A stretch of 64,000 bases of DNA from a virus, in IMG/VR virus record IMGVR_UViG_3300045135_000745, positions 1 to 64,000 of that record. One strand, given 5' to 3'. Below, in pieces: positions 30,407 to 51,840 of the stretch. Under the pieces are notes generated by a model. It saw nothing but the letters and a program-made list of their open reading frames with translations, searched no databases and was not told the DNA's origin. The position numbers were made by a program, and so were the translations under genes. Every line of letters starts with the position of its first letter. Within the stretch, counting starts at the first letter, position 1.

Positions 30407-30410
30407 TTTC

Positions 30411-32798: not shown

Positions 32799-34256
32799 TT
32801 ATGCGCTATAGATCGTTTTTAGTGCGGTACCGCTTGAATTGTAAATTATTAAACTGTCGTTGCTATGTACAATACCAGGATTTGAGTATACTTGCCATGT
32901 AGTACCATCGTATATGAATTGAACTTGTGCACCAGAAATGTCTAAAAGATAATCATCAGCAACCGATTCGATAGTTTGTCCATTTCTTGCTACTGTCAAA
33001 TTATTTGATGCCCAACTTCCGCCATCTCCCACAATAACCTGATCACCAGTACTTGGTGTGGCTGGAAGAGTTAATGTCCATGCACCACCAGTAGTATCTG
33101 CAATAATACCTTCACCGGCAGCAGCAGTATATGTTGTAGTTTTTTTGGTAAAAGTAATACCGCCACCACCACCACCACCAGAGCCCCAACTAAATGAACC
33201 ATCACCGTCAGAAAGAAGTGCTTGACCTGCTGTACCATTACCCGAAACATTTAGTTCATTAGCACCAACTACATTAGCCGCAATCTGAGCATTAATAGAG
33301 GTAGTACCAGAACCAGTTAAATCACCAGATAATGTAATTGTCTGGTTTCCGGTCAAATATGATCCTGCTGGTTGAATTCCTGCTTCAGCTAATGTATTAT
33401 TAACCCAAGCGCTTCCATTCCATTTTAAAATTTCACCAGACGTATTGCTTGTAATAGTAGTATTCGATAAACCGTCTAATGTGTGGTTATGAGATGTTTG
33501 AGAGAAAGAGCTTGCCTGAATACCATCCAATGTATCGGCATCAAGACCTGAACCTGAACCATCTACCGTTTTTATAAGTGTTAGGATTTCAGAAGCTGTT
33601 TGATCGCCAGTTGCCCCGGCTTCGATACCTGCAAGCTTAGAAGCTTCAGTCGATGTATATCCCTGATAGCCGGTAGCATAGGTAATTGCTAATGTGCCGC
33701 TAGTTGTAACAGGACTTCCTGATATTGCAAACCCGGTTGGAACAGTTGCCGAGACGGAGGTAACCGTGCCTGTATTTGTTGTATAACCACTAGGATTTGT
33801 TGCAAGATAAAAAGCGGTTGCATGATTTCCATCAAGCAAGTCAGCATCAAGACCAGAAGCAGCACCATCAACAGTTTTGATCGCAGTAAGGATTTCTGAG
33901 GCAGTCTGATCGGCAGTAGCACCTGCTTCAATACCCGCTAATTTAGAAGCTTCAGTGGATGTATATCCCTGATAGCCTGCTGAATATGTAATAGAAAAAG
34001 TACCGCTTGTAGTAATCGGGCTTCCTGATATTGCAAAGCCAGTCGGAACAGTAGTTGCTACTGATGTAACTGTACCGGTATTTGTTGTATAACCCGCGCC
34101 GTTTGTTAATTGATTATTGTTTGTCGGAATTGTAGGGGTATTAGTAAAGTTATTATAATCTAAGTAGTATGAAGAAGCTTGCCCATTAAGCTTCACGGCA
34201 CCAGTAGAATCTATGTAATTATTAATTTGGGATAAGTCAAAAGATCTTGAACTCAT
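32799..34256 (-). CDS. Tail fibre protein with two-copy internal repeat
   Basis: 485 residues. Two 88-residue repeats lie at 56-143 and 158-245 (GTVTSV.TVPTGFAISGSP...GLDAD.LDG). A collagen-free Gly run (GSGGGGGGG) follows near 365, then a beta-rich C-terminal domain. It ends LIIYNSSGTALKTIYSA, a motif shared with the ends of two other fibre proteins (34267 and 45375 genes). GTVTSV and LDADTLDG segments are usual in long, trimeric phage fibres. Predicted virion surface protein. Confidence 0.8.
   Translation of the reverse strand: MSSRSFDLSQINNYIDSTGAVKLNGQASSYYLDYNNFTNTPTIPTNNNQLTNGAGYTTNTGTVTSVATTVPTGFAISGSPITTSGTFSITYSAGYQGYTSTEASKLAGIEAGATADQTASEILTAIKTVDGAASGLDADLLDGNHATAFYLATNPSGYTTNTGTVTSVSATVPTGFAISGSPVTTSGTLAITYATGYQGYTSTEASKLAGIEAGATGDQTASEILTLIKTVDGSGSGLDADTLDGIQASSFSQTSHNHTLDGLSNTTITSNTSGEILKWNGSAWVNNTLAEAGIQPAGSYLTGNQTITLSGDLTGSGTTSINAQIAANVVGANELNVSGNGTAGQALLSDGDGSFSWGSGGGGGGGITFTKKTTTYTAAAGEGIIADTTGGAWTLTLPATPSTGDQVIVGDGGSWASNNLTVARNGQTIESVADDYLLDISGAQVQFIYDGTTWQVYSNPGIVHSNDSLIIYNSSGTALKTIYSA
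33522..34091 (-). repeat. Internal duplication in fibre gene
   Basis: Two coding units of 264 bases (34091-33828 and 33785-33522), offset 306 bases, encode nearly identical 88-residue segments. The nucleotide sequences differ at many synonymous sites, so the duplication is old or maintained by selection. Confidence 0.8.
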
Positions 34257-34266
34257 TTTCTATACC

Positions 34267-34920
34267 TTATGTTGTCGGGCTGTACATAGTTTTTAAAGCT
34301 GTACCACTAGAATTATAAATCGTTAAAGTTTGAACCCCAGCAAAATTAGAACTAGTAATATCATTATAAGTTGCAACATTAAATGTTGTAAATGCTATAA
34401 CTTGTAAGTCATCTCCAGCAGTTGCGCCACTATTTAAAACAATACTAGTTCCGTTTGATGCTGTATAATCATCCCCAGGTCTTAAAACAATACCGTTTAA
34501 AGAAACTATAATACTACCAACGGTATAACTTAACGTAGCGGCATTATCATCAGCCCCGGTAAAAGTAGTTTGTCCCCCGGTAGCAGTATATTCATATATT
34601 GTTAATGTCTGACTTGCTGCGTCAGCAAATGATAAATTACCAGCACCGTCAGTTTTTATAACTTGACCGTTAGAACCATCTGAGGTGGGTAATGTAAATG
34701 TATTAACGAATGAGGTAAGATTTGCATCATATGCTTGAATAGTAGACCCAATCTTATTATCAATAAGATCTGAATCTACAAAATTCTTAATTATGTTTGA
34801 GGAATTTTTATAGTAAAGTCTACCATCAGCATAGTTGAGGGCAACTTCGCCATATTCTAGATCACCAGTTCCTGGTGCATTACTAGATACAGATGATTTT
34901 TTAAGTAGGACTTTTGCCAT
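34267..34920 (-). CDS. Fibre-like virion protein with YNSSGTALKT tail
   Basis: 217 residues. The start MAKVLLKKSSV and GDLEYGEVALNYADGRLYYKNSS are the common N-terminus of marine phage tail fibres (baseplate-proximal end). The central segment PGDDYTASNGTSIVLNSGATAGDDLQVIAF is a recurrent beta repeat in fibre stalks. It ends TIYNSSGTALKTMYSPTT. A late box with a 12-bp leader hairpin lies upstream. It probably precedes the 485-residue protein in the same fibre. Confidence 0.7.
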   Translation of the reverse strand: MAKVLLKKSSVSSNAPGTGDLEYGEVALNYADGRLYYKNSSNIIKNFVDSDLIDNKIGSTIQAYDANLTSFVNTFTLPTSDGSNGQVIKTDGAGNLSFADAASQTLTIYEYTATGGQTTFTGADDNAATLSYTVGSIIVSLNGIVLRPGDDYTASNGTSIVLNSGATAGDDLQVIAFTTFNVATYNDITSSNFAGVQTLTIYNSSGTALKTMYSPTT

Positions 34921-36851: not shown

Positions 36852-37208
36852 TTACCTCGTGACCGACGGTGTTACTTCAAGATTTCCTTCCAATACTCTT
36901 TCAATGATAGTGTTTCCGGCACTATCATTATAAGAGATTTCCACATCATAAACCCAACGTCCAGGCTTCATAGCATCCGTCTGGGCGTTGGTTAATTCTA
37001 AAACTAATTTTCCGAGGGGTCTATTAACTTCTGTAAGGGTAGCAGTGAAATTTACCGTATTATCGCTATCTGCGTTATACGATCTTTTCGCCTTAGCTGC
37101 TGCACTAAAGCCATTCAAATTTTTTACAGATCCATCTTTATCGAGTAGTTCTAACTCGATTGCTACATCGGCGCCTTGGTCGATAGTGAATTCTTCGAAT
37201 TGAGCCAT
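36852..37208 (-). CDS. Ig-/BppU-like structural protein
   Basis: 118 residues. DQGADVAIELELLDKDGSVKNLNGFSAAAKAKRSY and RWVYDVEISYNDSAGNTIIERVLEGNLEVTPSVTR follow the beta-sandwich pattern of baseplate upper-protein N-terminal domains (D..G..L.G......Y.v......I..Gtv.v.p.VTR). It is the first gene of the fibre module, behind a late box, with GAGG upstream of the start. A baseplate-fibre connector role is inferred. Confidence 0.6.
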   Translation of the reverse strand: MAQFEEFTIDQGADVAIELELLDKDGSVKNLNGFSAAAKAKRSYNADSDNTVNFTATLTEVNRPLGKLVLELTNAQTDAMKPGRWVYDVEISYNDSAGNTIIERVLEGNLEVTPSVTR

Positions 37209-37233: not shown

Positions 37234-37241
37234 TATTTATA
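37234..37241 (-). promoter_or_regulatory. T4-type late promoter for the fibre module
   Basis: Exact TATAAATA on the minus strand, 26 bases before the start at 37208. Confidence 0.8.
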
Positions 37242-37269: not shown

Positions 37270-37329
37270 TTAGGGGGATTTACAAACTAATGTTTATTGG
37301 TATAATAGAATAGGCTTATTCGGAGGGGG
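37270..37329 (+). promoter_or_regulatory. GGGGG-TTTACA promoter element C, antisense to the radical SAM gene
   Basis: Plus strand TTAGGGGGA-TTTACA (37279-37284)-N16-TATAAT (37301-37306), then an imperfect palindrome GAATAGGCTTATTC (37308-37321) and GGAGGGGG (37322-37329). Spacing from TTTACA to the G-rich block equals element A. It overlaps the stop and last codons of the minus-strand radical SAM gene at 37316; no plus-strand gene follows. Confidence 0.6.
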
Positions 37330-38329
37330 TTATATAACTATCAAGTAACCAAGTAGAAATCTGATTGTTAATCAGATGATCAATCTTATCATAATTGTAG
37401 TTTGACCGAGGTAATCTATCTAATTCTTCTTTTAGCGTATTGTAGATCTTTTTCAACTTTTCTAATGATAGATTCCAAATAGCACAGTGCTCCGGATATC
37501 GAATAGTATTGTACCAAAGCTTGACGTGGTGCTTGTGAGTCCATCTCGCAAACTCTACCATCTCATCCCAATTTTGTCGCATTGGATTAACCATAATGGA
37601 AAGATCCCGGTTACCCTCTTTACAGTACTTATTAAAGATCTCGAAGTTTTTAAATAACATCTGTAGATCGCCGTTAATACGGATCTCAGCATAACGTTCA
37701 GGAATAAGACTATCAATGGAGATGTTGATATGGATGTTGCACATATCTAGGATTTTCTGAACACGCTTATTATACACTGTGCCATTTGTAGCGATATTAA
37801 CTTTTAATCCTGGATTTAGTTCAGCAACATCTTCACAGATATCAAGAACAATCTTCTGTGCAAATGGTTCACCACCATTGAATCGTAATTCTTCCAGGTG
37901 TGGTATAAACTCTCTTAGCTGCTCACGGAATGATTCATCATAGATCTGTGGTAAAGGCGGTAGCTTATCACGATTCTTACGAATGCCAGAAGATAGTACA
38001 CCAGAACACATAACACATTCTAGGTTACATTGGTTACTCAGTTCCAGTTCCATGAGACTGGGATATTCTTTTACAGTAAACTGATCGTAAGCCTTTGCAA
38101 GCGGCCAAACGCCATTGTCAATATCTTTCTTACACTCTGCACACTTACCGAGAAACACGTCATTAGCAATATTATCTCTGATTCGTTGATAGTGCTCGCC
38201 AAACCAAATATCACGAATAGATCTTTCTGGTGACCAACGATCAATAGCACCAACAGTAAGCCAGCAAGGTGCAACTGTACCAAATACAGTAAAGTACATG
38301 TTATTGACTGGTGCTTTACATATAGGCAT
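37316..38329 (-). CDS. Radical SAM protein with N-terminal twitch/SPASM-like domain
   Basis: 337 residues. The N-terminal region has Cys residues at 4, 22, 63 and 66 (PCWLTVGA, GKCAECKK), as in N-terminal twitch domains that hold an extra Fe-S cluster. The radical SAM motif is C101-x3-C105-x2-C108 (CNLECVMC), with the SAM-binding GGE at 152-154 (LRFNGGEPF) and VNIATNGTVYN after it. Such enzymes cleave SAM to a 5'-deoxyadenosyl radical; twitch/SPASM members often modify peptides or sugars. The substrate is unknown. GGAG lies upstream; it overlaps the next rSAM gene by 14 bases. Confidence 0.85.
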   Translation of the reverse strand: MPICKAPVNNMYFTVFGTVAPCWLTVGAIDRWSPERSIRDIWFGEHYQRIRDNIANDVFLGKCAECKKDIDNGVWPLAKAYDQFTVKEYPSLMELELSNQCNLECVMCSGVLSSGIRKNRDKLPPLPQIYDESFREQLREFIPHLEELRFNGGEPFAQKIVLDICEDVAELNPGLKVNIATNGTVYNKRVQKILDMCNIHINISIDSLIPERYAEIRINGDLQMLFKNFEIFNKYCKEGNRDLSIMVNPMRQNWDEMVEFARWTHKHHVKLWYNTIRYPEHCAIWNLSLEKLKKIYNTLKEELDRLPRSNYNYDKIDHLINNQISTWLLDSYITPSE

Positions 38330-39449
38330 AAATTAATTCACTCCATGCAGGATAAACTTCTTTAAAATCCTCTTGTCTGATTTTATCTAAGAATTCGGTT
38401 TCTTTTATAAAATTTTGATCCCATGATATATCACTCATCATGAAAAGAATGATTGCTTTGAATCTAGGATCTGACCCGTGTTTATTTAAGATTTCAATTT
38501 TAATCTTGGAATGTAGATTCTTAATACAAAGCCATCCAGGACCATGGAGTATATTGTTTACTGTCAGAATATCATTATCATCTGCCCAATCGAATAATTC
38601 GTGAAGATCCCATATATTATAATTGTTAATTGTTGGATGTAGTTTCAAATCAATATCATCATACGATCTAAGTTTTAAAATATTTTTTTCAATAGTTTTC
38701 CAATTAGCCGCGTGACGTTGATATTCTAATCTTTCTCCTATATCGTCAATACTGACTAATACCTTTACCTCTTTAAACTTTAGTAAACCATTAATCATGG
38801 ATTGATTTAAAATGCTACCGTTCGTAGTAATAAGAACTGTAATATTTTTTGCATATTCTGATTGAGAAATTATCTCTATCATTCTTTTTGATTCAGGACT
38901 TACGAATGGTTCACCGCCAGTGAATTCAATCTGTTCTAAATGTGGTAATACTTTATCGAAGAAATACTTTTCGTTTTTAGTACCAAGAATCTTATTTGAC
39001 AAATAATAATCTTCATCTTCTCTAACAAATCCGCGGAAAACTTTATCCTCTTTTAGTATTAAACTACTGTAAGAGTAATCACACATTCTACATTTAAAAT
39101 TACAGACATTACTCAATTTCAAATCAAAAAATTTGGGCGTATCTGCTTCTAATGTATATTTTTTTTCTTCCAAATAAACATCATTATAGATTTGTCTTAA
39201 ACTTCTAAATCCGGCTTTCTCTTCTTCCCAGCAAGATGAACATTCTGCGATCTTTTTATTATCTAAAAATGCTTGCCTGATCTTCTTGAAATCGTTACCG
39301 TTCCAGATCCCTTCATAAGTGTCGTCTTTCAAAGATCCGGTGGGGTAATTGAATTGACTACGCTTTTCTGCAAACTTACAGCATGGACGCACCAATCCTT
39401 CATTATCAGATGTGATACCAATCCATGGCATTACACAAAAATTATTCAT
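38316..39449 (-). CDS. Radical SAM protein with N-terminal twitch/SPASM-like domain
   Basis: 377 residues from the ATG at 39449. N-terminal cluster domain: C5, C23-C24 (GLVRPCCKF), C70 and C73 (AECSSCW). Radical SAM core: C116-x3-C120-x2-C123 (CNFKCRMC), then LEQIEFTGGEPFVSP with the GGE motif and VLITTNGSIL. It has the same domain order as the 37316-38329 product but is diverged, so they are paralogues or partners. The stop lies in the start region of that gene and its start overlaps the SPASM-only gene, indicating one transcript. Confidence 0.87.
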   Translation of the reverse strand: MNNFCVMPWIGITSDNEGLVRPCCKFAEKRSQFNYPTGSLKDDTYEGIWNGNDFKKIRQAFLDNKKIAECSSCWEEEKAGFRSLRQIYNDVYLEEKKYTLEADTPKFFDLKLSNVCNFKCRMCDYSYSSLILKEDKVFRGFVREDEDYYLSNKILGTKNEKYFFDKVLPHLEQIEFTGGEPFVSPESKRMIEIISQSEYAKNITVLITTNGSILNQSMINGLLKFKEVKVLVSIDDIGERLEYQRHAANWKTIEKNILKLRSYDDIDLKLHPTINNYNIWDLHELFDWADDNDILTVNNILHGPGWLCIKNLHSKIKIEILNKHGSDPRFKAIILFMMSDISWDQNFIKETEFLDKIRQEDFKEVYPAWSELIYAYM

Positions 39450-39840
39450 CGTTTTTCTTTGTACAGTATTTCTCACATTGTCTTATAATCCGGTTAGGAC
39501 TATCCCAAGATTCTGGCAACGTTTTTGTAAACCATTCACTTCCTATAATTTCCTCTAACCCCACGTTATGGATATTATATTTTTCTTTATTGGTATAATA
39601 TTGCATTAGTGTATTATCTGCAAAAGTTTCATGCTGGATGATATTACGATCCCCGATTTGATTGCTGATATTATTTTCTCTTACCGGTCTATCTTCTGGC
39701 ACATCAAGTTTATCGAACATATAAATCACGTTTGCTAAATAACAGCATGGTAATACTTGTCCATCGGGATTAATTAGCAATCTTTTCGATTCCATCCACT
39801 GGCATCTGACGTTCATCTTATTTTCATTCAGTTGCTTCAT
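39442..39840 (-). CDS. Stand-alone SPASM/twitch-like protein
   Basis: 132 residues from the ATG at 39840 (the frame opens further upstream but overlaps the neighbour more). It has RCQWMESKRLLINPDGQVLPCCYLAN and a C-terminal CEKYC: the layout of a SPASM/twitch auxiliary Fe-S domain, but with no CxxxCxxC radical SAM core. EEIIGSEWFTKTLPESW matches the neighbour at 39824-40261. It may be a cluster-bearing partner for the adjacent radical SAM enzymes or the remnant of a fused enzyme. Confidence 0.65.
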   Translation of the reverse strand: MKQLNENKMNVRCQWMESKRLLINPDGQVLPCCYLANVIYMFDKLDVPEDRPVRENNISNQIGDRNIIQHETFADNTLMQYYTNKEKYNIHNVGLEEIIGSEWFTKTLPESWDSPNRIIRQCEKYCTKKNDE

Positions 39841-40261
39841 TTTTTCTCGGCCTGGATTTGTTAGGATGGTAATGTTCCGCATTAACCGAACAATATTTTT
39901 TACAAAGTCTATGTGTTAGATTTTCATCGTCCCAAGATTCTGGCAATGTCTTAGTAAACCATTCGTGATTTAAAATATCTTCTAATGAATTATTGTGAAG
40001 ATTTAATTTATCTTTATCCTTAAAATATTCTATAGCCAGATATGGATTTCTACTTTTATCGTTTCTAACAGCATCTTTTTTAAATTTCCCGCCACCATAT
40101 ACCATTTCATCTGGAAAATCTTTTTCAAGATCCGGACCGAAAAAATTCACCATTGAAAAAGAATTAGCAAGATAGCAACATGGATACACTTGACCATCGA
40201 TGTTTACTAATGCATTATTCTTTGCCATCCATTCACAGCGTATTTTTTGTCGATTCTTCAT
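39824..40261 (-). CDS. Stand-alone SPASM/twitch-like protein, paralogue
   Basis: 145 residues, clearly homologous to the 39442-39840 product: IRCEWMAKNNALVNIDGQVYPCCYLAN, LEDILNHEWFTKTLPESWDDENLTHRLCKKYC. The Cys set (C-x..CC..C-x3-C) is conserved; a radical SAM core is absent. Tandem duplication kept both copies intact, arguing for function. It overlaps the radical SAM gene at 40233 by 29 bases and the paralogue by 17. Confidence 0.7.
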   Translation of the reverse strand: MKNRQKIRCEWMAKNNALVNIDGQVYPCCYLANSFSMVNFFGPDLEKDFPDEMVYGGGKFKKDAVRNDKSRNPYLAIEYFKDKDKLNLHNNSLEDILNHEWFTKTLPESWDDENLTHRLCKKYCSVNAEHYHPNKSRPRKNEATE

Positions 40262-41018
40262 ATATAATCCTCATATGTTCATCGTCATATAGATGCCAAG
40301 TCTTCCAATAGAAATCGCTGTTTTTTAGACTCGTCTTTTCTAAGACCTTTTCCATTCCAGTTTTATCGATGAATTTAAACTGTTGATTTTTATAGAATCT
40401 ATTCGATTGAACATAGAAGATATCTTCAGCCCCATAGTCTTTAACCATCTGAGCAATATTGTAAAGATCTTTTTCGTTGTGTTTAAAAGTTACTGTAAAC
40501 ACCTGACTTAAACCACCTGCTGCTGAGAAGGTTTCCATATTCTCTAATATCAAATCCAAATTAGTATCTTGACGATATAAAGAATGCTGGTCCTGTGTAA
40601 TACCTTCGACTGCCCACATAACGGTAATTCTTTTTTTACCTAATAAACCAAACTCCCACCACCAATCCGGATTTCTAAAACTTCCGTTTGTATTAACCAA
40701 TACGTTGGCTGATGAATAATCCATGATATATTTAACAATTTCAAATATATCTTTATTCATAATGGGATCACCCCAAGTACCACATATGTCAAAATGGTTA
40801 ATGTGCTGGAGAGTCTTTCTAGGAAACATCTTCTTAAATTCTTCAAAAGACCATTGCACTAAAGGTAACCAATCTGCTTTAACTAATCCGTTTGCATTTG
40901 TTCTATGACACTGCGGACATTTCGCATTACAATATGTAGAAAGATCCAACCACATCCCCAATTTCTTTTTTTCGTACTGGGTATTATAATTTTCAATCTG
41001 TGGTAATAAATCTTCCAT
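40233..41018 (-). CDS. Radical SAM protein
   Basis: 261 residues from the ATG at 41018 (GGAAAG upstream). The core motif is C30-x3-C34-x2-C37 (CNAKCPQC). The usual GGE is replaced by CGTWGDP near 80, as in some radical SAM subfamilies. VLVNTNGSFRNPDWWWEFG and VMWAVEGITQDQHSLYRQ continue the barrel. The C-terminus is short, with few Cys, so a SPASM domain is not fused; the two stand-alone SPASM-like proteins directly downstream might supply it. Substrate unknown. Confidence 0.82.
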   Translation of the reverse strand: MEDLLPQIENYNTQYEKKKLGMWLDLSTYCNAKCPQCHRTNANGLVKADWLPLVQWSFEEFKKMFPRKTLQHINHFDICGTWGDPIMNKDIFEIVKYIMDYSSANVLVNTNGSFRNPDWWWEFGLLGKKRITVMWAVEGITQDQHSLYRQDTNLDLILENMETFSAAGGLSQVFTVTFKHNEKDLYNIAQMVKDYGAEDIFYVQSNRFYKNQQFKFIDKTGMEKVLEKTSLKNSDFYWKTWHLYDDEHMRIIYEESTKNTL

Positions 41019-41679
41019 AATCTTTCCATTCATGTGGCTTATTCGTACTTCGAGTAAAGTGAACCATCTTTATATCTTGATGAAAGTCATTACCGTCGTA
41101 AAGTTTGTTCCCGGTAATTTCGAAATATTTATCCTCGATTTTTTGAGTGCTAATATCTGGATCACTTATCCATCGGGTAAACCAAGCATCTGGCATAAGT
41201 GTTACGTCCATTCCGTATAGACTATCCTGGACAAACATGAATTCACCATTCACTGGGCCAATGGTTAAACCAGCTTTAATATAGTAGTTTGTATAGTATG
41301 GAATATCGCTCATAAACTTTTCATAAATGTGTCGAGTTCTACTTGGCCAAAACTTATAAAATCCACCAGCCATTTTAAATGGTGTTCCATTAAAGTTCCA
41401 CCAATATGGAATAGAAACAAATTCATTCTTTGCACATGGATAATTAATCACTTCATGGTAGTCGTGAATCAGTAGCTTATCGATATCCATTACAATTACA
41501 GGTTCGTCGATATCCATACCGAAGACTTGTAACTTATTCCATTGCAGCGGAACCCACTTATGAAAAGGTTCACGAATCCAATGGACGTCGTGACCTTCTA
41601 ATTTACTGTTAATATAATCTTCATATTCAGGACCGTACTTTGTTCCGATCCTCACACAGAATACTTTCAAAGGAACCAT
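40993..41679 (-). CDS. Glycosyltransferase-like protein (GT-A type)
   Basis: 228 residues. LKVFCVRIGTKYGPEYEDYI starts a Rossmann-like fold; VPLQWNKLQVFGMDIDEPVIVMDIDKLLI holds a D-x-D (MDID), which binds metal and nucleotide sugar in GT-A enzymes. NGEFMFVQDSLY and IKMVHFTRSTNKPHEW resemble the acceptor and C-terminal His region. It is similar in layout to the 43134-43781 product. Possible targets are fibre proteins or host surface glycans. It overlaps the radical SAM gene by 26 bases. Confidence 0.65.
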   Translation of the reverse strand: MVPLKVFCVRIGTKYGPEYEDYINSKLEGHDVHWIREPFHKWVPLQWNKLQVFGMDIDEPVIVMDIDKLLIHDYHEVINYPCAKNEFVSIPYWWNFNGTPFKMAGGFYKFWPSRTRHIYEKFMSDIPYYTNYYIKAGLTIGPVNGEFMFVQDSLYGMDVTLMPDAWFTRWISDPDISTQKIEDKYFEITGNKLYDGNDFHQDIKMVHFTRSTNKPHEWKDYGRFITTD

Positions 41680-42539
41680 TCCATTTTTTTATTAATGCAG
41701 TGATATAGCTTTGCGTGCGGATCACAAGCATTTACATTCTTTTTCTTTTCGTCTACAATATAATGCCATGGACCATTTAGATATTCAATTGGGATATCTT
41801 TCGAATGAACAAGATAAGAGAACAAAGTTTCATTATCATAACCGAATACGCGCCGAATGTTGTATGGGTACATGGAATCTTCGTCGGTCTTTAGCTCTGT
41901 CATAAGATCCAAATTCTCACGGAAGTTCTCGAAGTAACCTAGCTTCTTGATAGTCTCGGATGATGCAACCATAATACCCGTATTAAACACATCGTTATCT
42001 GGTTCATATCCTTCTTCCAATAGCATTGCATGAGCATTCCAATACTTAGTGGAAGGATTACGAATACACGTATTATAGTTTTTAGGATCTACAGTCTTAC
42101 CCCAGTGCGCAAGCGCATTCGAGTTCGCGCACCCGAACTTATTCTCAATATCATGAGCTGCAAAGATACAATCAGTGGTATTCGGTACAACGTCAAAATC
42201 CAAATAACATACAGCATCGTACTCGGCTGCCATATTACGCATTGTCCAATGCTTATAAAAGTTCACGATATCGTAATGTGAAACCTCTGGATAGTCAGTC
42301 TCAAACATTTCTATAAAGTCTTGATATTCTTTATCCCATTCGTATAAACGATAATCAGCACCAATAGCTTTAGCATACTGTTTATGACGTTCTATGATCT
42401 TATCATAGTTATTTAATAAAGCCAACTTTGTCTGCAGGCTTTTATCTGTCTGAACCTGTACATCGTTTTCAAACCAACCGGGATTATCTAACTTATCTTC
42501 GGGAATGTCTATGAATACGCTATAAACTATTTTCTTCAT
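41667..42539 (-). CDS. Glycosyltransferase-like protein (GT-A type)
   Basis: 290 residues. KKIVYSVFIDIPEDKLD, then HYDIVNFYKHWTMRNMAAEYDAVCYLDFDVVPN: the YLDFDV is a D-x-D metal/sugar-nucleotide site. FNTGIMVASSETIKKLGYF and DETLFSYLV-like sequence (NETLFSYLV) fit the rest of a GT-A fold. The acceptor is unknown. It overlaps its neighbours by 4 and 13 bases, which argues for tight co-expression with the radical SAM genes downstream. Confidence 0.7.
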   Translation of the reverse strand: MKKIVYSVFIDIPEDKLDNPGWFENDVQVQTDKSLQTKLALLNNYDKIIERHKQYAKAIGADYRLYEWDKEYQDFIEMFETDYPEVSHYDIVNFYKHWTMRNMAAEYDAVCYLDFDVVPNTTDCIFAAHDIENKFGCANSNALAHWGKTVDPKNYNTCIRNPSTKYWNAHAMLLEEGYEPDNDVFNTGIMVASSETIKKLGYFENFRENLDLMTELKTDEDSMYPYNIRRVFGYDNETLFSYLVHSKDIPIEYLNGPWHYIVDEKKKNVNACDPHAKLYHCINKKMEWFL

Positions 42540-43159
42540 TTGCCGATTACCATATGTCTATTAAAGTCGCCTAAATTTAATGTGCCAGTATAAGCAACAT
42601 AATCTAGATTTAAATCAACAGCAAACAATTCTGCATCTGGCCAACAATTAATATGTGCATCTAAAGCAGTATAGTCATTTGTCTGAAAACAAATCCACGT
42701 GTCTTTCGGCTTATTCTTGATAATGCTTATAAGATCTTCCTGCTCCATATGCTCACAACTTGTATTAATAATAGCCGTGTATGGAGAGTAATCAGGCTTT
42801 TCATTTACATCTAATGTTTCGAATGCAATATCCTGATCATGGAATAGTTCCCAGCCGTAGAAGTCACACATTGGGTCCATATCGCTAGATGTAATATTCA
42901 TACTGGCATTCGGCCATAGCTTTCGCAGCTGATAAGCCATCATACCGTACCAACCACCTACTACAAGAAGATTACCATTTGGGTTGTTATAATGCTTATA
43001 GAATTCTTTCGCTAGCCACTCTTTACCTTCCCAGTGATTCTTATCCACTGAGTGCACAAGATCTTTAATACGAAATAGATCGTCGACCCCGTACATAGAT
43101 TCATCATAAACTTTTTCGCAGAGCTTAAGAACTCTATTTAAGATCGTCGAGTCCAACAT
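42536..43159 (-). CDS. Class I SAM methyltransferase-like protein
   Basis: 207 residues. GNLLVVGGWYGMMAYQL is motif I of a Rossmann methyltransferase, MNITSSDMDPMC the acidic end of strand 2 and AIINTSCEHMEQEDL the strand-4 region. Proteins with this SCEHM pattern appear, from memory, in other marine phages beside sugar-modifying genes. It could methylate a sugar or protein group. ATGA overlap with the glycosyltransferase at 42536-42539. Confidence 0.65.
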   Translation of the reverse strand: MLDSTILNRVLKLCEKVYDESMYGVDDLFRIKDLVHSVDKNHWEGKEWLAKEFYKHYNNPNGNLLVVGGWYGMMAYQLRKLWPNASMNITSSDMDPMCDFYGWELFHDQDIAFETLDVNEKPDYSPYTAIINTSCEHMEQEDLISIIKNKPKDTWICFQTNDYTALDAHINCWPDAELFAVDLNLDYVAYTGTLNLGDFNRHMVIGK

Positions 43160-43781
43160 TAATCTCCTCGAATGTCAATACACATGGGTCATAATCTACT
43201 TCAGGCTGATACTTCTTGGATTGAATGTATTTTTTATCGAAGACAAAATTATTTACACTAAAATCTTCATGTACCAGATATCGGTCGATCCCCACATATT
43301 TACGCATGAAATAATCACGGAAACCTGACTCGTTAAAGTGTGTCCAGTATTCTTGCATAGCTTCATTTGAAGCGTCCCAAGTCATTACTGAGCTGTTAAT
43401 ACGTACATCGTAGTTAGCTAGTCGATCGTATAACTTACCTTGCTTCCAGTGTGAATGCACAAGGGTAAGTTTTTCCCAATCACGTGGATCATCGTGAATG
43501 AGCGGATCCTTTAAAATCTTCACATCTAAGTCAAAGAAATATGTTTTACCTTTAAACGGCATCTCCAGATCAAATAAACGTAGTTTGTTCCACACGCCTT
43601 TTAAAGTTGGCCGCCCCAGAGGCGGTATAATGTTTACCTCAGGGTCAATATCTGTTGGATCGTCGGTATAACAGAAGAATTGGAATTCTGCTTTTGTTAA
43701 TCTTTTAATATCATGATAAAGCTTGTTTACGAAGTCTGCACTATACTTCGGGCCAAACTTCACACAGATCACATTATACAT
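43134..43781 (-). CDS. Glycosyltransferase-like protein (GT-A type)
   Basis: 215 residues. YNVICVKFGPKYSADFVNKLYHDI and GVWNKLRLFDLEMPFKGKTYFFDLDVKIL; FFDLDV is the D-x-D site. The start and the order WNKLRLF...DxD match the 40993 product (CVRIGTKYGPEY...WNKLQVF...DID), so the two are probably distant paralogues. It heads the accessory island, 3 bases after the coiled-coil gene, so it is in the same transcript as upstream virion genes. Confidence 0.68.
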   Translation of the reverse strand: MYNVICVKFGPKYSADFVNKLYHDIKRLTKAEFQFFCYTDDPTDIDPEVNIIPPLGRPTLKGVWNKLRLFDLEMPFKGKTYFFDLDVKILKDPLIHDDPRDWEKLTLVHSHWKQGKLYDRLANYDVRINSSVMTWDASNEAMQEYWTHFNESGFRDYFMRKYVGIDRYLVHEDFSVNNFVFDKKYIQSKKYQPEVDYDPCVLTFEEINVGLDDLK

Positions 43782-43783
43782 TA

Positions 43784-44422
43784 TTATTCCCTTGCAGAGA
43801 TATAGATCTTAAATAATTCCCATAAAGATTTTGATTTTCTAACTGATAACTTAAGCTGTTTATCTTTAGATTTACCGATAATAGGATCTTCAAGAATAGC
43901 AATCTTAGCATTAAATACAAAATCATCATCTCGATCTTTGGAATCTATAATTGATAAAAGATCTTTAGCATTAATCTCAGAGGATTTTGGACCGGCTGTA
44001 ACGAATTTATCCTGAAGCTTTTTTCTAAGTTCAGAAAATTCTTCTTGAACTTCTTCAAACTTTTTCAGTTTTTCTTGCTCTGCATATTGGTCTAAGTCAC
44101 GATATCTTTTTTCTGCATAAGAATCGATATCTTCGTAGGCTTTTTGAATTTTAGATTGTTCAGCGGCCCAACGACGATCGATTTCATCATTAATCATTTT
44201 TTCAAATACATCAGACTCAACCTTTAAAGCTGCTTGAGTATTTTTCTCAATCTCTTCTAAGGTTAATTCCTGTAATAGATCGTTAAAATCGTTTGATGTG
44301 AAATCGACTTCTAAAATATAAGGAATTACTTTATCTTCTTCCTGATAAAGTAATTCAATAATCATATTATTCGGTAGATCTATAAATTTTGCGGAAATAA
44401 TTCTTTCGCTAAAAATAGCCAT
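43784..44422 (-). CDS. Coiled-coil hypothetical protein
   Basis: 212 residues. N-terminal 70 residues are beta-rich (ISAKFIDLPNNMIIELLYQEEDK), followed by a long charged helix (RWAAEQSKIQKAYEDIDSYAEKRYRDLDQYAEQEKLKKFEEVQEEF) with clear coiled-coil character, and a basic C-terminus. No family recognised. Placed between virion proteins and the sugar/radical SAM island, it may be a fibre-associated or assembly protein. Confidence 0.6.
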   Translation of the reverse strand: MAIFSERIISAKFIDLPNNMIIELLYQEEDKVIPYILEVDFTSNDFNDLLQELTLEEIEKNTQAALKVESDVFEKMINDEIDRRWAAEQSKIQKAYEDIDSYAEKRYRDLDQYAEQEKLKKFEEVQEEFSELRKKLQDKFVTAGPKSSEINAKDLLSIIDSKDRDDDFVFNAKIAILEDPIIGKSKDKQLKLSVRKSKSLWELFKIYISARE

Positions 44423-44442: not shown

Positions 44443-45372
44443 TTAAACTTGTGTAACTCTCAAATAGTATGTAGAGATTGTAGTTGCAGTACCGCTGGGA
44501 ACTTCTTGCGTGCGGTAATCATCCGTATTTACAAATCTAGTAAGATAGGTAGAACTATTTAGTTTAGTATCGGTCATAGCTGTACCGCGGTTATTACCTG
44601 TACCATTTATATTATATGAAATTTTAGTACCAGTAATTTCTGCAGCATAATAACGCATCATACTTTGTAATGCTGTTTCAAACGTTGCCGAAGGGGTTTG
44701 ATAAAGATTTGTACCAGATTTGGTATAACAAATAGGAAGCTGATGTCCTGCAGCGGCGGCAGAATTAACTCTATGTAAATAATAGTTTGTAATAGTAGTT
44801 GGCTGATCTTGAGTTTCCGGAATACCGGAAGCTGTATATGCCGCAGCATTTGCTCGAGTATCGGTAAACACCGGCGTTGCTGATACTAATGTAGCTCCAG
44901 CAACTGAAGAGGATGTTGAAATAAAATATGTGCCGGCTTGCGCTGTTCCTGTTGACCCTGTTGTAAGACTATCGATTGCTGGATAAATGAATGTGTCTGC
45001 AAAATCTGTTGCAGTCATTTCCCTTAAATCACCAGCATCATAGTATAATGGGTAGGAATAAGATGCGTCAGTCCACGATACTTCAGATGTATCATATGTT
45101 TGATTCATTTTAGAATAATTAACGGTTACAGTAGATACATCAGGGGTTTCAGCTGGTGTATCATAATCAACTGGATCAGTCGTGCCTGCCCCAGCTTGTA
45201 AACGAGTATCGGATATTGTCCCTAAAGAACCACCAGAAGCTACAACCGATAATGTTACAGATGGATTTAAACCGTAAAGTCTGATTGCCTCGGTTTGGAT
45301 TGCAGTGATTTCTCCAGCTGACATTTCTTTTAAATTGCTGCCGTCAAGTTTTAAAGGAGTTCTAACCGCCAT
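44443..45372 (-). CDS. Virion structural protein (cyanophage-type)
   Basis: 309 residues. MAVRTPLKLDGSNLKEMSAGEITAIQTEAIRLYGLNPSVTLSVV, then a related segment YYDAGDLREMTATDFADTFIYPAID: two similar LREM(S/T)A..I/F blocks suggest an internal duplication. The C-terminal part is beta-rich, ending TTISTYYLRVTQV. Similar proteins occur among structural genes of marine T4-like phages, from memory. Probably a fibre or baseplate-peripheral protein. Confidence 0.65.
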   Translation of the reverse strand: MAVRTPLKLDGSNLKEMSAGEITAIQTEAIRLYGLNPSVTLSVVASGGSLGTISDTRLQAGAGTTDPVDYDTPAETPDVSTVTVNYSKMNQTYDTSEVSWTDASYSYPLYYDAGDLREMTATDFADTFIYPAIDSLTTGSTGTAQAGTYFISTSSSVAGATLVSATPVFTDTRANAAAYTASGIPETQDQPTTITNYYLHRVNSAAAAGHQLPICYTKSGTNLYQTPSATFETALQSMMRYYAAEITGTKISYNINGTGNNRGTAMTDTKLNSSTYLTRFVNTDDYRTQEVPSGTATTISTYYLRVTQV

Positions 45373-45992: not shown

Positions 45993-46195
45993 TATAGTTT
46001 CTCTATGATCTGGGTTAGCATGGATTTGATATCATTAACATCTTGTTTCAACTGTTCAATTTCCTGCTTCTGCCTGTTACGATTCTCTTTTGCTTTCCTA
46101 GCCATATTAATTTCAGAGGTATTTATATTAATAATTGCACCGGTTTTCGGATCTCTTCCAAATCCCGGCGCGTTATCAGCTTTTAGTATTTTCAT
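45992..46195 (-). CDS. Small coiled-coil virion-associated protein
   Basis: 67 residues. DNAPGFGRDPKTGAIININTSE followed by a coiled coil (KAKENRNRQKQEIEQLKQDVNDIKSMLTQIIEK). Proteins with G(F/Y).RDP.TGAIIN and a C-terminal coil are widespread in marine T4-like phages near structural genes. It shares one base with its two neighbours at each end (TAATG-like joints). The role is unknown; trimeric coil assembly is plausible. Confidence 0.7.
   Translation of the reverse strand: MKILKADNAPGFGRDPKTGAIININTSEINMARKAKENRNRQKQEIEQLKQDVNDIKSMLTQIIEKL
46120..46127 (-). promoter_or_regulatory. Possible internal late box
   Basis: Exact TATAAATA on the minus strand within the 45992-46195 gene, 128 bases before the fibre gene at 45992. 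If active, it would drive that gene, the coiled-coil gene and the accessory island. Confidence 0.4.
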
Positions 46196-49100
46196 TATAC
46201 TGCCAATGCGATTGTTCTAATATCCTTAAACACTGGCACCTTCGCTTGATTTTCTGAAACCATAACAATTTTTATTTGTAATTGATTGAAAGCATCCAGT
46301 GTACCAGTATTACCTCCAATCAGATATTCATATTCTCTGAATACTTCCGGATTTTCATCACTGATTAGTCCTGACGTAGAAGTAATTGCTGTCCATGAAA
46401 GGTCGGAGATATTATCATCACCGGAAGCTACTCTATAATACACGTCGAATGAAGCTGCATTAGGCTTATTAGCAGTAATGAATAACTTCATACCAACAGC
46501 ATCTTGCGCTAGAGTAATAACTTTACTTATATGCTTAGCAACTGATGAACCACCCTTCGGATCTGTTTCTGCTACGTAGTTAATTGGTACGTTAAATCCT
46601 GCAGCAGGTGAAGCTGCCGGCTTATCAATAATATTATTAATAGCAAGAACCGAAGCTCTTTGCATATCAATAACTGGTGAAACTTTTTTATCTGTTGTCT
46701 GAAGACCTATTTTCAGATTAAAGCTTTTTGCGCCGCTGAGATATGTAGTTTCATTATTACCATTTGCGATCATCTGAGGAGCATCGAATGCAATATTTTT
46801 ACCAATAGTCATAGGCGTATAAGTTGAAGCTTGCTGATAAGCAGTTTCTGTACCAGCAATCGATTGTGCCGTAGTGGTTTTAATCGATGCAGTAATAGAT
46901 GTTTCAGTAGGTCTTAAAGTTGCAAGACTGATATTAGCAATATCCATCAAAATGTTTTGGTCTGCTAAGATAGCTGATCCGCCACCAATTTCTGCAGAAG
47001 TAGCATCAGAATCTGCTTCAAATTGATAACCAGTTGCATCTACTACTGTAATAGTTCTAGCGCCATTAATGGAAGAAGCACTAATGCCAGCCATGTCTGT
47101 TGCGCCTGAGATATTAACCGTATCGCCAACTGCAAATCCATGATTAGGTTGATACACCGAGATTGTTGCATCAGCAGAATCAACTGATAATGGATCTTCA
47201 GTTAATAGTTTCTGTGGAACAGAAGCGTTGTTAAGAACAACCTCACCGTAACTGGTATTGAATGCTGCAGTGTAGATATGTATTTTCATATCTTCCCACT
47301 GAGTAGCTGTCCAAGTTGAGTTATTCTGAGATTTAAACAAGGAGCCTAAGAATGGCTGCTTAACAACTTTCTTATCTGTTGTACCTAATACATAATCACC
47401 AACTTTAGAAATAAAGACTCTATACGTCGGAACAGAAGAAATAAGAACGAAGCAGTATTCCTTATTAGGATTCAAATAAACCGGTTCTTCGAATTCGAAT
47501 GTAGTTGCTACGCTCGCATCATCCGATACTGTAATTTCAGATGGGAATTTAAATACTGTTGAACCTCCGATAACCTCAGAAGTCGGATACCCGTTTTCAA
47601 TAGCACGAATTTGACCCCAAACTGGAGCAGTGCCAGTATCTTTTTCTGCAAAATACACATCAACTTTTGTAGCAAATACGCCATTAGTATTAGAAATAAA
47701 GAATGATTGTGCTAATGGATCCGATCTATTGTGGGCCAGTAATCCATTCGCAAAATATGTATTGTTACCATCTAAGATAAAGTTATAGACTGTCTGTTCT
47801 GGCTCATCAGAGAATACCTCTAATGATTCAACCAGCATCCAAGAACCGTCTTCCATAAGGATTTCATCACCAACCTGAAGATCTTTAACATCTAAGAAAC
47901 CCATTTCAGGGAACTGATACGCAAAAGTTTCAGCAGAGTATGATCTCCAGCCATTCTTGGTAAAGAGCGGGTGTTCGGGGGTCATGAATGGACCATTACC
48001 ATTAATACCAATGAAATCTCTTCCATCTAATGCTGGATGGTCAAATTCAAGAACAGTATTGATAGCGCCATCTTGACCCAGAAGTTTTTCACCGATCTCA
48101 ACATCTTCAATCTTTTTCTTAGTGCCATCAGCCATAGTGATAAGAGTCCCGGCAATAAAGCAAGAACGTTCAATAGGAGGCGCTGGCGGTCTTGGTGGTG
48201 GCGGGGGCGGAGTAACCACTGGCGGCGGTGGCGGATTAGTTGTAGTTCCAATAACCCTACTAGACGAACTACTAGTAGTTCTTTGGCTACTAACAACCTC
48301 CAATACTCTAGTGCTTAAAACATCTCTTTGTCTTGTCTGTAGCGTACCAGCAGCAGTAAAAACTTGTCTTCCATAGGAGGTAGAAAATTCGATATTATTA
48401 AGATCAGTTATGTCAATTAGTTCAAAGTCTCTGCTACCAGTTCTAAATCTAAAGTTAGCTGTCGACGGAATAAAGAATGAACCTTCTATATTGCCATTAG
48501 CATCAGCAATTAAAGATGAAGAACCTTCTGGATGGCCAAGTGCAGTATTTTCAGTATTACCGAATGTAGTCGTATCATCAGAAGCACGAGTAAAGGTTTC
48601 TGCCCTACACCAATCTGATACATCAATACCGTCAAAGAATGGGAATACTTCAGTATCAGGTCTAAACCCTTGGCCTCTGAAATATACTTTTCTCGATCTC
48701 ATGAATGGGATAGAAACTCCTTGGACTAATCTATCACCGACGATCTCTGTGATAGTAGTTTCACCTACAATTCTATTATTACCGGTGGTGGTAGAAGACC
48801 ATGAGTTTCGAATAGTTTCTGTACCACCAGTACCGAAATCTCCAGCAGTATTATTAACAGAAGTGCTAGAACCACCGCTAGAACTTAATGTGATGGTGTT
48901 TGTAACCGACCCAACTTGCAATTGATCTAGCGGAGTACCTCCCCAATTCCACTGATGGGCATTCCAAAGGTTTGCCCCGGAAGTATCTAATTGAGTTTGA
49001 TTTACAATCGCATCTGGTTGATACTCTTGTTCAATCCAGTTATCGCTCGCTGGTGAAAGTGCAATATTACCGTCGAATCTAATAGTCCAATATGGAAGAA

Positions 49101-51840
49101 CATTTTCTGTGCCACTGGCCTGCGATTGATTGATATATGACTCGTGGGCATATTTAAGGTAAATATTATCACCCTTTTTAATCACGCCAGAGTTCTCGCT
49201 ATTATCAGAATCATAAAGAAGATCTATAGCATCTGTATTACCACGCGGACGCATAGCTTTATTTTCTGGATCGATTGCAGCAGCGTAATCTAGATCATCT
49301 GTTGCAGAAAAGAAGTGATTAGAAAAGTTATCTACGAAAAATCCAGATTTGGTTCGATTATTACCATCAGAATCCAATACCGCTAAATTAGCCGTATCAA
49401 GCTCGAGCAAACTTAATGAGGTGACTTCTTCTAAAGAATTAAGTCTTTTTTCTAACAAACCGATATCAGCCATAGTATAATGCTTATGTTCGATTTGTTT
49501 CGAAACTAGATCTTTATTATCTAGTACATAAGGATTAAACTGAATTCTATATAATTCAAGCGAGTTATCTGGATGCGGAACGAATTCAGGCGTTAAAGAT
49601 TCATCGCCATTTATAACAAAAAGATTTGCTTTAGTATCAATTACTAGCTTAGAATACACCTTATTATAATAAGAAATATCAGCCTGAATAGCATCATTTG
49701 GCTGAGGAAGCTCGTGAACGATAGCTCCTGATCCGAAAGTACCAGAAGAATTTACTACCGGTCTAAAGTCAAGTACGTTTCTAAGAGGGATTGTAGATCC
49801 TACGGCATTAATATGGGATGGGATATCAGTATAATCTACTTGACCGGTATATGAGTTAACTGAGAAGAAATCACCAGAAACCCCATGTGAGAAATAATCG
49901 TATTTAACAACAACATCGTAGGTTGGAACAGATTGGCCTGACTTAAGAACAAGACGACCTAAACCATAATAGTTATCTCTCTGTCCATTATCGAGAATAA
50001 ATCTAGATCTCACACTATTACCGCTGACGCTATCTCTTGTTACCGATGTAAATGAATATACGTCTGGCTTAGATAAATTAGCGAAGATTGTGCCATTACC
50101 ATCAGAATCCCAATCACCTGTACCGATAGTGTCTGTCTGGTCTTCATTTAAGGTTTTAGAACGGATTGAACCATTAGCTTTATTGACGTATGCCATAACT
50201 TCAATACTAGAAGCACCGCCAAGTCCTGAAATAGTAGCGTTTGTAGTACCAACGCCAGTAATAGTAGCACCAGTTACTACCGCACCACTATCGGCAGAAA
50301 TAACCCAGTCGTTTGTATTTGCAAACGTTTCGCCGGATGCTGAAAGGGTTAATGTTGCACTACCTGCAGTAACTGACGCCGTGAATCGTCTTTGCGTTGA
50401 AAGAGAGATATCAGTCATATTAGACGGACGAATTCTAGGAAGTGCGAATAATAACGAATTAGTTTTAGGATCCTTTAGAACCGCTTGACCTAATTCTAAA
50501 ACCAAGTTCATAAAGTCTGTACCGCTTGTGCCGATACTTCTTACGCTTCTAAAGTTCTGCCCAGAGTTCATAGAAATTTGAAACAGGTGAAGTCTATGGT
50601 AACCTGAGTTATCTTCATCAACTGCTCTAACACGAGCCGTACCAATAGTACTTCCCCCATAATCTACAGCATTACGAAGATTGACGGTTGAGAAGTCATT
50701 AATATTCGGAAGGCCTTCACTGGTTGAACCATCTACAAGAACATAGTTACCTAAAGTAAATGCAGCTACTTCGTTATTAACTGTTGTGGTGGTTCTAGGT
50801 TTATCAACAGTAATAGTTCTAGAACTATGGGTTTCTACTCTATAACCATCAATATAAGCTAAACCTGGTTGTACGGAAATATCAATTTTGCTAGTATCAT
50901 CGGTATTGTCAGAGAAGTTTAATTTAAAGGGTTTTACAATATAATCACCAGACTCTTCAGAAGTTCTGGTTGCCAGCATTTCTGCGATTATATTATAGTT
51001 TTCTTCTTGGGCCGGTTTTTTAACCTCTAAAATATCATCACCATTAAGTACCCCAACGAAAACAAAATTATCCGCTGAGTCTATCGTGGAATCTAAAGTC
51101 AATGTTAAATTGATTTTAAATCTATCAGCGCCGGGAGAAGAGGTGTTAGGTAATGGACCTGAGTTATCGTATAATGTGTTATCGTCGTTTGCGGTAACAA
51201 TAGATTCGGTTACTTTAAATCCAAAATTATCTGTATTAGTATCTGAGTTTTCGTATTTCTTAGCAAGGATAGTTTGTTTTGGGGAAAATACGAATCTACC
51301 ATCTACGTAGTATACCCCTTCATTATTGGTAAGGAATACGCCTTCCCCTAAAGCTGGGTTTGCTGTAGTATTGGTAGTCTGTACTGTTAAAGTAACAGCA
51401 CCATTTGTAATATTTTCACCTGGAGTAAATCTTAAATTAGATCCATTTGCGTTAATATATCTTACGTAAATTGTTCCAGGGTCAGATGCTGTGGCTTCCT
51501 CAACGTGAGTAACAACAGCGGTCACGCCACTTGTAGAACCGGTAAACGTGGTATTTAAAATAGTAGATGTATCAGCCGGGAGAGCATTAATTGTCTGATT
51601 TAATTTTGCAAATTGGGAACCTGATGCAATAAATCCACCAGACTGAACAATAGCACCTTCTTTAAAGATGTTATCCCCGAACCGAGTAATCTCTTTTTGA
51701 ATAATAGTTTGTAGCTGTGTAAGCTCTCGTGCTTGAACCGCTCTACCATTATTAAATAAGATTCTATGAAACCCAGCACTGTCAGAGAAATCATCTCTGT
51801 ATGTTTCTAGGAAAGTATTCTGAATTACTTGATCTACCAT
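46195..51840 (-). CDS. Giant virion protein with embedded Hint (intein-like) domain
   Basis: 1,881 residues. The N-terminus FHRILFNNGRAVQARELTQLQTIIQKEI resembles DUF4815-type large structural proteins of T4-like marine phages. Long beta-rich regions follow, then a Pro-rich hinge (PPPPPVVTPPPPPPRPP) and a Hint domain at 1227-1371. After it DPLAQSFFISNTNGVFATKVDVYFAEKD and NPNKEYCFVLIS form the receptor- or baseplate-facing module normally continuous with the upstream part. It lies directly after gp8, near the place of T4 gp9/gp10. It is probably a peripheral baseplate or short-fibre protein. A late box lies upstream inside gp8. Confidence 0.8.
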   Translation of the reverse strand: MVDQVIQNTFLETYRDDFSDSAGFHRILFNNGRAVQARELTQLQTIIQKEITRFGDNIFKEGAIVQSGGFIASGSQFAKLNQTINALPADTSTILNTTFTGSTSGVTAVVTHVEEATASDPGTIYVRYINANGSNLRFTPGENITNGAVTLTVQTTNTTANPALGEGVFLTNNEGVYYVDGRFVFSPKQTILAKKYENSDTNTDNFGFKVTESIVTANDDNTLYDNSGPLPNTSSPGADRFKINLTLTLDSTIDSADNFVFVGVLNGDDILEVKKPAQEENYNIIAEMLATRTSEESGDYIVKPFKLNFSDNTDDTSKIDISVQPGLAYIDGYRVETHSSRTITVDKPRTTTTVNNEVAAFTLGNYVLVDGSTSEGLPNINDFSTVNLRNAVDYGGSTIGTARVRAVDEDNSGYHRLHLFQISMNSGQNFRSVRSIGTSGTDFMNLVLELGQAVLKDPKTNSLLFALPRIRPSNMTDISLSTQRRFTASVTAGSATLTLSASGETFANTNDWVISADSGAVVTGATITGVGTTNATISGLGGASSIEVMAYVNKANGSIRSKTLNEDQTDTIGTGDWDSDGNGTIFANLSKPDVYSFTSVTRDSVSGNSVRSRFILDNGQRDNYYGLGRLVLKSGQSVPTYDVVVKYDYFSHGVSGDFFSVNSYTGQVDYTDIPSHINAVGSTIPLRNVLDFRPVVNSSGTFGSGAIVHELPQPNDAIQADISYYNKVYSKLVIDTKANLFVINGDESLTPEFVPHPDNSLELYRIQFNPYVLDNKDLVSKQIEHKHYTMADIGLLEKRLNSLEEVTSLSLLELDTANLAVLDSDGNNRTKSGFFVDNFSNHFFSATDDLDYAAAIDPENKAMRPRGNTDAIDLLYDSDNSENSGVIKKGDNIYLKYAHESYINQSQASGTENVLPYWTIRFDGNIALSPASDNWIEQEYQPDAIVNQTQLDTSGANLWNAHQWNWGGTPLDQLQVGSVTNTITLSSSGGSSTSVNNTAGDFGTGGTETIRNSWSSTTTGNNRIVGETTITEIVGDRLVQGVSIPFMRSRKVYFRGQGFRPDTEVFPFFDGIDVSDWCRAETFTRASDDTTTFGNTENTALGHPEGSSSLIADANGNIEGSFFIPSTANFRFRTGSRDFELIDITDLNNIEFSTSYGRQVFTAAGTLQTRQRDVLSTRVLEVVSSQRTTSSSSSRVIGTTTNPPPPPVVTPPPPPPRPPAPPIERSCFIAGTLITMADGTKKKIEDVEIGEKLLGQDGAINTVLEFDHPALDGRDFIGINGNGPFMTPEHPLFTKNGWRSYSAETFAYQFPEMGFLDVKDLQVGDEILMEDGSWMLVESLEVFSDEPEQTVYNFILDGNNTYFANGLLAHNRSDPLAQSFFISNTNGVFATKVDVYFAEKDTGTAPVWGQIRAIENGYPTSEVIGGSTVFKFPSEITVSDDASVATTFEFEEPVYLNPNKEYCFVLISSVPTYRVFISKVGDYVLGTTDKKVVKQPFLGSLFKSQNNSTWTATQWEDMKIHIYTAAFNTSYGEVVLNNASVPQKLLTEDPLSVDSADATISVYQPNHGFAVGDTVNISGATDMAGISASSINGARTITVVDATGYQFEADSDATSAEIGGGSAILADQNILMDIANISLATLRPTETSITASIKTTTAQSIAGTETAYQQASTYTPMTIGKNIAFDAPQMIANGNNETTYLSGAKSFNLKIGLQTTDKKVSPVIDMQRASVLAINNIIDKPAASPAAGFNVPINYVAETDPKGGSSVAKHISKVITLAQDAVGMKLFITANKPNAASFDVYYRVASGDDNISDLSWTAITSTSGLISDENPEVFREYEYLIGGNTGTLDAFNQLQIKIVMVSENQAKVPVFKDIRTIALAV
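47728..48162 (-). other. Hint / bacterial intein-like (BIL) domain
   Basis: Residues 1227-1371 of the giant protein, 145 residues, the size of an intein without endonuclease. Block A starts at C1227 (CFIAGTLITMADGTKKKIED). Block B has T1287-x-x-H1290 (MTPEHPLF). Block F is YNFILDGNNTYFANG and block G ends LLAHN (H1370, N1371). The next residue is R1372, not Cys, Ser or Thr, so ordinary intein splicing should not work; this is the layout of A-type BIL domains, which cleave or splice by a variant path. The flanks read ERS before and RSD after. Confidence 0.85.

Follow-up and report, generated by a model that had tools for sequence, protein, structure and literature searches.

We analysed a window of 64,000 nucleotides (nt), positions 1 to 64,000 of the virus record IMGVR_UViG_3300045135_000745; the record comprises 79,884 bases and is itself a fragment. 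The minus strand of the window carries, at 37316-43781, an island of nine open reading frames (ORFs), each overlapping the next. Three of the products are radical S-adenosylmethionine (SAM) proteins and two consist of a twitch domain only; the other four are three putative GT-A-like glycosyltransferases and a SAM-dependent transferase. In the direction of reading, we named the genes GT1 (43134-43781), MT (42536-43159), GT2 (41667-42539), GT3 (40993-41679), rSAM3 (40233-41033), SP1 (39824-40261), SP2 (39442-39882), rSAM2 (38316-39476) and rSAM1 (37316-38329). From the end of GT1 to the end of rSAM1, successive overlaps are 26, 4, 13, 41, 29, 59, 35 and 14 nt. Translation of SP2 and of rSAM2 probably begins slightly downstream of the longest-ORF starts (at ≈ 39840 and at an ATG at ≈ 39449, respectively), in which case two of the overlaps are shorter. 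Since orthologous cassettes with the same gene order are present in many contigs, the island is not a chance arrangement.

The flanking genes are of virion type as judged from profile matches. A VrlC-like baseplate protein (46195-51840, minus strand; phrog_358, PF16075) marks the 5′ border of the host recognition cluster; it contains a Hint/intein-like insert (PF05203 at amino acids 1227-1265, PT-HINT at 1312-1371). Between this gene and the island lie, also on the minus strand, 44443-45372, encoding a virion-type protein of 309 amino acids with 27% Ser + Thr, and 43784-44422, a conserved linker gene whose product of 212 amino acids has a charged middle of variable length. On the other side of the island, fibre PHROGs are found at 32799-34920, and the neck genes gp13 and gp14 (29489-31166, minus strand; phrog_211, phrog_460) form the 3′ border. 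Both this placement between VrlC and gp13/gp14 and the combination of fibres with a glycosyltransferase fold (that of GT2) are those of the pelagimyophage host recognition cluster. The tail sheath and gp23 identify the phage as T4-like. Its sheath is closest to those of C48C1, a Stenotrophomonas phage, HTVC008M, Mosig and Melnitz.

A preliminary description of this DNA had reported nine genes that overlap end to end between virion genes and have no late box of their own. Both statements were borne out: no exact TATAAATA late-type box occurs between 46120 and 37234. The closest exact upstream copy is at 46120-46127 (minus strand). Another, at 37234-37241 on the same strand, is directly downstream of the island and ahead of 36852-37208.

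Transferases and radical SAM proteins of the island

A Pfam scan gave no match of their own for GT1, GT2, GT3 or MT. The structural model of GT2 had a mean predicted local distance difference test (pLDDT) score of 95.1. Comparison of this model with the PDB using Foldseek returned XXYLT1 (7e-07) and also LARGE1, LgtC and the PBCV-1 capsid glycosyltransferase 2p72, and the DxD motif consists of the invariant residues D114 and D116. On the strength of the predicted fold, we assign GT2 to the GT-A enzymes of the GT8-like type. GT1 and GT3 matched phrog_1962 'glycosyltransferase' weakly (E 8.6e-05 for GT1), and the DxD motif is invariant in both (D84 and D86 in GT1, D65 and D67 in GT3). A sequence search of the PDB with GT1 gave nothing useful. 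The MT profile weakly reached CntL (staphylopine synthase; E 0.009), Methyltransf_25 and Spermine_synth, and MT is at best a predicted Rossmann SAM-dependent transferase. CntL moves an aminobutanoyl group rather than a methyl group. Because CntL and Spermine_synth are the profile's nearest neighbours, MT might likewise transfer aminobutanoyl from SAM and not methyl.

In Pfam searches, rSAM1 and rSAM2 scored 47.8 and 43.2 bits against PF04055, above the cut-off of 29.5 bits. rSAM3 was slightly under it (27.9 bits), yet has an invariant CxxxCxxC motif (C35, C39, C42). With this motif in a PF04055 barrel, rSAM3 is a predicted radical SAM protein. The SPASM family PF13186 was above cut-off in SP1 (28.1 bits), SP2 (27 bits), rSAM2 and rSAM1 (27.5 bits); SP1 has Cys residues at 9, 28, 29, 120 and 124. 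rSAM2, which has its twitch at the N-terminus, is a confident member of the curated family NF033640, 'twitch domain-containing radical SAM protein' (308.6 bits against a cut-off of 170 bits), a model name that gives no function. Both rSAM1 (138.2 bits) and rSAM3 fell below this cut-off; for rSAM1, the classification goes no further than a radical SAM protein with an N-terminal twitch and a similar layout. Genes for Fe–S (iron–sulphur) assembly, PF01521 and PF01592, were absent from the record, which is a fragment; such genes have been reported in other radical-SAM-rich T4-like marine phages (PMC5332604).

A scan of viral contigs with rSAM3 as a single protein gave no matches. A joined rSAM3 + SP1 query aligned as one piece to a single protein, gp083 of the Campylobacter phage CP220, in which the rSAM3 and twitch parts are fused. 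In about a dozen phage loci, rSAM3 homologues are 346–385 amino acids long and end in a C-terminal twitch (SP profile E 1e-5 to 2e-20), whereas the short close homologues (∼ 260 amino acids) adjoin a stand-alone twitch protein of ∼ 100–145 amino acids. Fused forms occur in the relatives that we numbered L060-L100 and in CP220 gp083; in Mosig, the radical SAM core (00084) and the twitch (00085) are separate genes. These sequence comparisons indicate that the 'plain' rSAM3 is one half of a split enzyme, the core and the twitch of which are encoded by adjacent genes here and fused in homologues. SP2 is the orthologue of the usual rSAM3 partner, and SP1 is an extra stand-alone twitch subunit on a branch shared with L030. 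We rejected the possibility that SP1 was left behind when a second copy of rSAM3 was lost, as SP1 groups with the L030 twitch and not with the first twitch of L107. The protein types given in the preliminary description thus stand as regards PF04055 in three proteins, SPASM in four and the GT-A nature of GT2; its 'plain' and 'SPASM-only' proteins, rather than being separate types, are the predicted halves of one split enzyme.

The twitch domain is also found joined to a transferase. Homologues of Mosig 00085 and 00092 (GT3) form one polypeptide in eight loci (L063, L067, L070, L072, L083, L095, L096 and L119), and in each of them the fusion gene is directly downstream of the 00084 homologue. 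L063:13586-14671 encodes a single polypeptide with an N-terminal twitch iron–sulphur domain and a C-terminal GT3, and at least seven more loci do the same. As Rosetta-stone evidence, this fission and fusion suggests that the radical SAM core next to the twitch is the one it serves, and that core and twitch together cooperate with GT3.

SPASM/twitch enzymes frequently modify peptides. The radical SAM enzymes might act on the residues of a virion protein by cross-linking, epimerisation or methylation, in the manner of ribosomally synthesized and post-translationally modified peptides, while the glycosyltransferases act elsewhere. The weak match of the rSAM3 profile to 5wgg, a radical SAM domain protein (E 0.0017), agrees with such a role, but the profile matches cytosylglucuronate decarboxylase, a sugar enzyme, equally; a sequence search of the PDB with the twitch profile gave nothing useful. 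Moreover, there is no obvious small precursor gene within the island, and the twitch–GT3 fusions connect the radical reaction with the transfer of a glycan. We consider a purely peptide- or protein-directed role improbable.

A homologue of rSAM1 (56%) was also observed in another phage type (L021:7256-8263), between ribonucleotide reductase genes. It adjoins a NodU-type carbamoyltransferase gene, and a GT25-like gene is nearby. The carbamoyltransferase neighbour points to sugar chemistry and not to virions.

Co-inheritance of the cassette with the 44443-45372 protein

The GT2 profile detected 224 relatives in IMG/VR viral contigs. The same profile gave three matches in 84,980 cellular genomes, all on short contigs of metagenome-assembled genomes, and at least two of these contigs carry the same phage genes. 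Related viral contigs share the order GT1-MT-GT2-GT3-rSAM3-twitch-rSAM2-rSAM1 and its flanks, but genes have been lost or gained in the radical SAM part: L013 is without rSAM2, rSAM3 and the twitch gene each occur twice in L010, and L014 has one more radical SAM gene.

VrlC was in view in 45 of the GT2 loci. All 45 encode the 44443-45372 protein, 44 the 43784-44422 linker and 43 MT; GT3 and GT1 are each present in 37, and a radical SAM gene in 29. The preliminary description had regarded homologues consistently outside virion modules as evidence against a role in fibre modification. The glycosyltransferase and MT core stays inside, as the 45 loci demonstrate, but the rSAM1 family is not so confined. 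A search starting from the 44443-45372 protein yielded 20 loci, with GT2 in view in all but two: the L126 contig stops within MT, and L129 is short and bears genes of the GT1 and MT types. The loci with GT2 include a minimal form that has no radical SAM gene inside the cluster (L131-L134). In L131, L132, L135, L138 and L195, the 44443-type, 43784-type and GT2-family genes are kept on the opposite strand before gp13; in several of these minimal relatives, related radical SAM genes lie beyond gp14.

We obtained similar results with an independent sample of 50 non-redundant loci anchored on VrlC. Cassette genes were present in all 18 loci with a 44443-type protein but in only 2 of the 32 that lack it (Fisher p 1e-11, a nominal value that overstates independence, since the loci are related to one another). 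Of the 20 cassette loci, 13 also had radical SAM genes of these families; the other 30 loci had none. The radical SAM genes are an optional layer on a cassette core of GT1, MT, GT2 and GT3. Among 50,697 phage records, the 44443-type protein, GT2 and MT each matched only Mosig. All three were absent from HTVC008M, which has VrlC and fibres and is cassette-less.

The adjacency also bears on the possibility that the cassette serves free small-molecule auxiliary metabolism, for example by making a modified nucleotide sugar or cofactor that aids the infected host. A metabolic role has been suggested for the radical SAM clusters of CP220 (Timms et al., PMC2853527), and the location of the rSAM1 homologue beside ribonucleotide reductase genes would fit it. 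Such a role is very unlikely, given that the cassette almost always adjoins a virion-type gene and that GT2 is all but missing from the contigs of cellular genomes.

The AlphaFold model of the 44443-45372 protein has a pLDDT of 95.7. It had no match in the PDB or BFVD, and a sequence search of the PDB gave nothing useful. Given its genomic place and composition, the protein is probably a virion component, and its co-inheritance with the cassette makes it the putative acceptor. The downstream fibres have been swapped between relatives that keep the cassette (L010 versus L014) and are less likely acceptors. Hence, the earlier proposal that neighbouring virion proteins are modified remains probable, but the likeliest acceptor is on the VrlC side of the island and not among the fibres.

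Virion protein or host surface as the target

The explanation that we favour, with moderate confidence, is that the cassette glycosylates and radically tailors the adjacent virion-type protein. On this view, a marine T4-like phage has a cassette for glycosylation and tailoring inserted in its host recognition cluster. GT2, together with GT1, GT3 and the SAM-dependent transferase, would build a short glycan on the 44443-45372 protein. The radical SAM enzymes would add an optional outer layer, altering the glycan or the glycan-bearing residue at unreactive C–H positions. One radical enzyme would work as two polypeptides, the rSAM3 core and the SP2 twitch, with SP1 as a second such subunit, and would probably act in contact with GT3. 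The genes, their families, the fission and fusion and the co-inheritance are observed here, whereas the acceptor, the covalent attachment of the glycan, the nature of the sugar, the radical reaction and the timing are inferred. That a complex of split radical SAM enzyme, twitch subunit and glycosyltransferase puts a C–H-modified sugar on a dedicated virion protein is a more specific proposal, and a rather doubtful one.

The main alternative is decoration of host lipopolysaccharide, or another surface glycan, against superinfection or against re-adsorption of progeny to debris, with the virion protein as the matching adhesin. Radical SAM cassettes and glycosyltransferases are known in the pelagimyophage host recognition cluster, and for the glycosyltransferases of this region the authors favour O-chain modification (PMC7029224). 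The likeness of the GT2 fold to LgtC and the additional sugar-type genes of some relatives (aminotransferase, carbamoyltransferase, epimerase) agree with that assignment. GtrABC-type O-antigen converters consist of a membrane-embedded flippase and transferases. In contrast, a hydropathy scan (19-residue window, mean hydropathy at least 1.5) revealed no membrane-helix-like segment in any cassette protein, and the cassette has neither a flippase nor a lipid-linked step. Here, it lies in a structural operon without its own late box, which would be late for exclusion. It is also tied to one virion-type protein while the fibre sets vary. These features argue in favour of virion modification, and we regard the host surface as a possible but unlikely target.

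Several observations weigh against virion modification. Co-inheritance of a virion protein with a glycosyltransferase would also be expected if the enzymes modified a receptor to suit the adhesin of the phage itself, and LgtC-like folds also act on lipopolysaccharide. L160 and L230 carry cassette genes without a 44443-type protein, and six loci have the 44443-type protein and other cassette glycosyltransferases with no GT2 in view. Distances of the 44443-type protein correlate with those of GT2 no better than GT2 distances do with those of VrlC (rank correlation 0.50 in both cases), which leaves no specific sign of co-evolution beyond common ancestry. Finally, Mosig and many relatives encode the glycosyltransferase cassette on the opposite strand. 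Late co-transcription with the structural genes, as first proposed for the island, therefore fits this lineage but is not general.

Related cassettes in other phages

The enzyme set had initially been thought to match nothing described. This does not hold, since a comparable set of glycosyltransferase and radical SAM genes lies among the fibres at the same VrlC-gp14 site in pelagimyophages, and both the kind of cassette and its location were thus already known (PMC7029224). The available text of that paper contains no gene-by-gene analysis and does not mention an acceptor, a split enzyme or a glycosyltransferase fusion. A close cultured counterpart is in the Pelagibacter phage Mosig EXVC030M (00084-00097). 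It has MT, GT2 and GT3 in the same order (00090-00092), the split radical SAM and twitch pair described above, and a 50.8% homologue of the 44443-45372 protein (00097). Besides its strand, the Mosig cassette differs in having extra aminotransferase, carbamoyltransferase and nitroreductase genes and no close rSAM1 or rSAM2 homologue among the genes compared. The T4-related Campylobacter phages CP220 and CPt10 have five radical SAM genes and sugar-transferase-like genes near baseplate genes (PMC2853527); they differ by the presence of an amidinotransferase, and GT2 and MT homologues were not found in them.

Virus-encoded glycosyltransferases act on virion proteins in PBCV-1 (capsid) and in mycobacteriophages (capsid and tail tube). 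In these viruses the acceptor has been demonstrated, whereas here it is a candidate. Virion glycosylation in PBCV-1 and the mycobacteriophages is not known to include a radical SAM layer.

Three features appear to be new: the tie of the cassette to one fold-orphan virion-type protein, the radical SAM fission and the twitch–GT3 fusion. None of them was found in the literature searched, the coverage of which was partial, and term searches of the Mosig and Melnitz papers returned nothing on the cassette.

Earlier work on marine T4-like phages noted glycosyltransferase and radical SAM genes in their fibre region and left them as probable host-envelope genes. Co-inheritance now singles out Mosig_00097, from a phage in culture, as a candidate acceptor, and the choice between virion glycosylation and host-surface modification can thereby be put to a direct test. 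Because the twitch domain is split off in some phages and fused to GT3 in others, it seems that a separate protein may supply a radical SAM enzyme with its auxiliary cluster, and that glycan transfer and radical chemistry may be coupled.

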